Shown: one piece after another, positions 51,765-52,872 of the stretch
Position numbering within the stretch: the first letter of the stretch is position 1
Layout of the letters: each line of letters opens with the position of its first letter
NCBI RefSeq assembly: GCF_001909285.1
Contig: NZ_MRSV01000001.1
Span: 2,683,340-2,747,339, forward strand
DNA: 64,000 nt
Source: Exiguobacterium profundum
GTDB taxonomy: Bacteria > Bacillota > Bacilli > Exiguobacteriales > Exiguobacteriaceae
Reading direction: 5' to 3'
The notes under the pieces: generated by a model
The model's input: the letters and a program-made list of their open reading frames with translations, nothing else
Told to the model about the DNA's origin: nothing
The model's database searches: none
Position numbers and translations under genes: made by a program

Positions 51765-51957
51765 TATGATCCTCAACTTTATCAATTTTTCTCTATTATC
51801 CCGAACCAGCCATCATCTGACAACGTTTCTTACGAAAATCCGTCTTAAGCATGAGAGCGAATGGTTGTTTCAGATGAAAAGCGGGAAAGGAATAATAATT
51901 GGTTTCTGCCCAAATCGAGATTGCCTACGAAAAGTTTGACTGAAAGGAGGAGAGCTG

Positions 51958-52104
51958 ATGCGCATCGGAAAGTTACGCGTATTGTTAGAGCAGTATGGCG
52001 AGGCGACGTTACGCGATTTGCTCGTCGAAATGTACCGTCATACTCCTAAAGATGTGATTGATGATCAAGATTTTGATTTTATGATCAGCCAATTCACGCG
52101 ATAA
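51958..52104 (+). pseudogene. N-terminal piece of an interrupted gene, 48 codons
   Basis: ATG at 51958, 7 nt after AGGAGG, opens 48 codons (MRIGKLRVLLEQYGEATLRDL...) ending TAA at 52102-52104. The next codons stay in the same frame without a stop into the 52156 ORF, so the two read as one ~304-residue protein with a single in-frame stop (CGA TAA AAA). A one-base change from CAA or GAA would suffice. It may be a nonsense mutation, read-through or a real short gene. Confidence 0.5.
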
Positions 52105-52155
52105 AAAGAGAAAAAAAATTCTGAAGAGCGACATTCGCTCTCGCAAACCATCACC

Positions 52156-52872
52156 TTGGCTGAACGGTTTGTTGATTCTGCGTACGAACATTTGTACATT
52201 CGTCCGAATCAAGTCATGTCAGAAAGCGACCAAAAAAATTGGTACATTCATGCTAAAAAAATCATTCGCGATTTAGCGCATTACGCCGAGAAATACACAG
52301 AAGCACGTACGATGTATGAAGAAATGTTTTACCTCCTCTCTACATCGGCTGGCGAAGAACCGCTCTTCTCTACAAGTGACCCGTTTCGCCTTTTAAAAAT
52401 TTCACAAGTCACCATGCTCAAGCAACTCATTCACTACTATCAGCTCGATGCCCCGATTGATACCGTTTGGATTGACCGCGCCCTATACACCGCACTCCAC
52501 GTGCCAAAAGATGTTGATTCTACACGAATTGATTTACTCTCAACGCTACCCATCGAACACAGTCATGCCAATACAAGAAAACTCCTTCACTCCCGTCTCT
52601 TAAAACTTTGCGATCGGATGTTAGAGAAGTCCCAAACAGAGGATACCGCGCTCGAAAACTATCAAGCGCTTAAAATGTTAGAACTCCGCCTTCTCGTCGC
52701 TGAAGGGAATTTGAAAGAAGCGGAACAAAAATTGTTCTCTGAATATATCCCGTTCTTTTCTCATCGCTCCGAACCATTTCGGGTATATGTCGACTTTTTA
52801 GAGAGTCACGGACACACTAGTGAGACGAAGCGCTTAAAACGAATTGCTAAAGAAAAGCGAAAACGATTTTAA
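52156..52872 (+). CDS. Hypothetical helical (TPR-like) protein, C-terminal piece of an interrupted gene
   Basis: A 238-residue open frame from TTG at 52156 with no ribosome-binding site; it runs on in the same frame upstream to the TAA at 52102. The sequence is wholly helical with repeats of the kind HAKKIIRDLAHYAEKYTEARTMYEEMF and ends in a basic tail (KRLKRIAKEKRKRF). It could be a TPR-like scaffold. Function is unknown. Without the upstream start it is hard to see how it is translated. Confidence 0.6.
   Translation: MAERFVDSAYEHLYIRPNQVMSESDQKNWYIHAKKIIRDLAHYAEKYTEARTMYEEMFYLLSTSAGEEPLFSTSDPFRLLKISQVTMLKQLIHYYQLDAPIDTVWIDRALYTALHVPKDVDSTRIDLLSTLPIEHSHANTRKLLHSRLLKLCDRMLEKSQTEDTALENYQALKMLELRLLVAEGNLKEAEQKLFSEYIPFFSHRSEPFRVYVDFLESHGHTSETKRLKRIAKEKRKRF

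Follow-up and report, generated by a model that had tools for sequence, protein, structure and literature searches.

In the window, the stretch of 64,000 nucleotides of Exiguobacterium profundum DNA analysed here, a forward-strand reading frame spans positions 51958–52872. It begins with an ATG directly preceded by AAAGGAGGAGAGCTG, runs for 48 sense codons to an in-frame TAA, and is then open for 255 further sense codons up to a second TAA (Table 1). Downstream of the first TAA, the earliest start-like codon is a TTG at 52156, which would open an ORF of 238 aa, and the earliest in-frame ATG is at 52216. Inspection of the sequence upstream of these two codons revealed no Shine-Dalgarno sequence for either. 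The layout described in an earlier note, a 48-codon ORF with a strong ribosome-binding site followed by an open frame devoid of a usable start or ribosome-binding site of its own, was thereby confirmed.

Table 1. Coordinates of the features at the 51958–52872 locus of the window
Feature	Position	Strand	Basis
Ribosome-binding site region, AAAGGAGGAGAGCTG	51943–51957	+	Sequence; AAAGGAGG core retained in nearly all same-genus orthologues
48-codon 5' part, covering most of a conserved, roughly 56-residue helical module at the N-terminus	51958–52101	+	Module alignment, phylum search
In-frame TAA replacing codon 49, which encodes Tyr in every aligned orthologue	52102–52104	+	Codon alignment; stop only in the window's genome
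255-codon remainder, putative helical TPR-like C-terminal part; open and orthologue-like	52105–52869	+	
Normal stop codon of the gene, TAA	52870–52872	+	

Whole-genome searches for orthologues, first with the part downstream of the stop and subsequently with a full-length protein profile, covered 37 relatives, of which 18 belong to the same genus (Exiguobacterium) and 19 to its sister genus. Each of these 37 genomes carries a single, uninterrupted copy of the gene, 303–304 codons long; over the gene, identity is 70–94% for the same-genus copies and about 44% for those from the sister genus. A chance open frame is thus ruled out. The window's genome is the only one among those searched to show a stop, a single TAA, and a search for a second, intact copy of the gene elsewhere in it found none. 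In the codon alignment, position 49 is TAT or TAC in 29 of the 29 relatives aligned; the residue lost is therefore Tyr, not the Gln, Glu or Lys that the earlier note had expected orthologues to show. None of the 37 relatives has the gene split into separate 48- and 238-residue genes with a stop at the same site, the arrangement that would have spoken against a single gene. The proposal of one gene of about 304 codons with one nonsense codon therefore stands, and 51958–52872 is, on the evidence of these comparisons, one gene interrupted by one stop.

The interruption appears to be young. Against its five closest relatives the copy in the window shows dN of 0.03–0.05 and, where it could be estimated, dS of about 1, and its divergence, over the full gene as well as beyond the stop, falls in the same range as that among these relatives themselves. 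The dN/dS ratio against near relatives is about 0.03–0.04, whether taken over the full gene or only downstream of the stop; these low values indicate that the lesion is recent. The frame has hardly decayed, and the gene still looks selected overall. However, the copy carries two radical changes, R90S and I302K, and both affect positions that do not vary among the other 29 aligned copies. In the other 18 same-genus copies, no change at such a position has a BLOSUM62 score below 0. Although the sample is small, R90S and I302K point to lost constraint.

We consider that the locus probably represents a recent, lineage-specific nonsense allele, i.e. a young pseudogene of a gene for a 304-residue protein. 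Codon 49 of a single-copy, genus-wide gene would have changed from Tyr to TAA very recently in the E. profundum lineage. Translation would still begin at the normal site and end after 48 residues, and most of the protein would not be made, because the TAA would be efficiently terminated and the downstream starts lack a ribosome-binding site; the truncated product would retain most of the N-terminal module and nothing further. The allele resembles recent nonsense pseudogenes of bacteria in having a premature, substitution-type stop where the orthologues have a sense codon, in the absence of this stop from all relatives, in the otherwise open frame and in being single-copy. Nothing tested set it apart from them; we infer both that the stop exists in the strain, as opposed to having arisen in assembly, and that the allele is null. 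It is represented by the single draft genome of the species, an assembly of 2.92 Mb in 21 contigs.

A stretch of 580 kb of this genome, comprising 498 genes, was scanned for interrupted genes against genome G004; several hits close to the 5' end of a gene or within an untranslated extension were put down to over-long start calls and set aside. About 8 of the 498 genes, including the present one, have convincing mid-gene lesions, which exceeds the number in the reverse comparison. The identities of the broken genes were read from their sequences, with Pfam confirming the deformylase and acyltransferase families. Besides the present gene, they are as follows: 1) A second peptide deformylase gene (G000:C1:2262475-2263134) carries, within its conserved EGCLS motif, an in-frame TAA in place of Glu; the genome also has another, intact deformylase. 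2) In a ctaG-like gene (G000:C1:2232318-2233238) with 98.7% identity to its G004 orthologue, Tyr 103 is replaced by TAA and the adjacent next codon is also altered. 3) A sensor kinase gene (G000:C1:2653236-2654628) contains a 1-bp insertion. 4) An acyltransferase gene (G000:C1:2681036-2681813) contains a short duplication. 5) An amylase-like gene (G000:C1:2759185-2761251) has TAG for Gln. 6) In a ygzB-like gene (G000:C1:2623809-2624198), one Cys codon of a CxxC motif has become TGA. 7) A GNAT-like gene (G000:C1:2256942-2257388) has TAA for Ser. Pfam searches identified intact paralogues of both the peptide deformylase and the acyltransferase in the window's genome.

The main rival to a real nonsense allele is that the TAA at codon 49 is a base-calling or assembly error and that the strain's gene is intact. 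This is a serious rival, which we nevertheless regard as rather unlikely. It would be in keeping with a lone draft genome in 21 contigs from which tRNA clusters are missing, with a gene that is barely decayed apart from the stop, and with the excess of mid-gene lesions over G004, some of them in well-conserved genes, as an error-prone assembly would give. On the other hand, the lesions tested lie in genes with intact paralogues, and the present gene bears two more radical changes at invariant sites. Base errors were also sought through nonsynonymous singletons in a four-way comparison of 115 genes (35,000 codons), in which the window's genome had an N/S singleton ratio of 0.084, the lowest of the four (the others being 0.093–0.108), although a low error rate would escape this test. 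Base errors are therefore not widespread, and genome-wide error was rejected as an explanation within the limited power of the test. Recent real losses of dispensable genes fit these observations best.

Functional read-through, in which the TAA would be decoded at a useful rate to yield the 48-residue protein together with some full-length protein, is a far weaker candidate and seems very improbable. Low dN/dS is kept in the frame after the stop, and bacterial in-frame stops that show such low ratios have been suggested to be sites of read-through (PMC7918605), but here the low ratio would have been inherited from before the mutation. The conserved in-frame stops of Belinky et al. (2021; PMC7918605), for which read-through was suggested when they are shared by orthologues of at least two species, resemble the present one in the open post-stop frame with low dN/dS, whereas the present stop occurs in one genome and is common to no relative. 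Moreover, TAA is the stop codon read through least often in E. coli reporters (PMC11126739). Two tRNA-Tyr genes with a GTA anticodon, and none with a TTA anticodon, were detected among the tRNAs found, a set that is incomplete. The tRNA complement of the draft lacks many isoacceptors (e.g. Lys, Phe, Pro and His), probably as a result of unassembled rRNA/tRNA clusters. The interrupted codons elsewhere in the genome had specified Gln, Tyr, Glu, Ser and Cys and have become TAA, TAG or TGA. Such varied lost residues and the use of all three stops indicate that no codon has been reassigned; together with the lack of a TTA-anticodon tRNA in the incomplete set, they led us to reject both reassignment and a suppressor. 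Since the stop is not shared, TAA is the least read through and reassignment does not apply, functional read-through is unlikely. Slightly less credible still is a regulatory premature stop, read through usefully to give a short protein of the N-terminal module and a little full-length product. That the locus holds two separate genes, of 48 and 238 residues, is scarcely conceivable: the TTG-started ORF of 238 aa exists mechanically, but it has no ribosome-binding site, no relative is so organised, and in distant Bacillota homologues, about 340 residues long, the two parts share a single frame. Of the three readings left open in the earlier note, a fresh pseudogene is thus favoured, a sequence error is a possibility of lower standing, and read-through giving two products fares poorly.

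The intact protein is predicted to be entirely helical (AlphaFold with 23 aligned orthologues, mean pLDDT 81). Its weak Foldseek matches are mostly to TPR or PPR folds, the best having an E value of 0.019 with a TM-score of 0.19; none had an E value below 0.001, and TM-scores of the top matches were about 0.2–0.3. Thus the model resembles TPR and TPR-like helical repeat proteins in being all-helical, but the protein differs from them in giving no significant TPR profile or structure match, no TPR family being hit in Pfam. Searches of Pfam, NCBIfam, PADLOC and PDB sequences gave no significant match for the protein, and PHROGs gave only weak matches of unknown function (best E value 0.006). Attempts to assign a function by way of protein families, structures and defence libraries thus gave nothing beyond these weak PHROGs matches and a weak TPR-like likeness of fold.

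A profile built on residues 1–56 and run against a phylum sample of 398 genomes matched in 14 other genera, mostly in open frames of about 320–350 residues, and the nine matches read out align to the full-length family profile over at least half its length. Family members L175–L183, of about 340 residues, have conserved (S/V)EMYKxxPKK and QYYFAPN...KWRF motifs. In the members of this Bacillota family that were tested, no Pfam family scored above its curated cut-off. Elsewhere in the class, one genome of another genus (G301:C1:283804-283968) has the N-terminal module on a shorter protein of a different kind, whose tail is rich in Cys and resembles a zinc ribbon, suggesting that the module may be a mobile interaction domain. 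From these profile matches, the interrupted gene is assigned to an unnamed Bacillota protein family that is predicted to be all-helical.

The two frames at this locus are accordingly to be annotated as one gene, with the boundaries given in Table 1, and the strain is flagged for its modest burden of recently broken genes. Beyond annotation, this burden and the family, the finding is an ordinary one; the locus draws attention to an uncharacterised, conserved protein family of the Bacillota.
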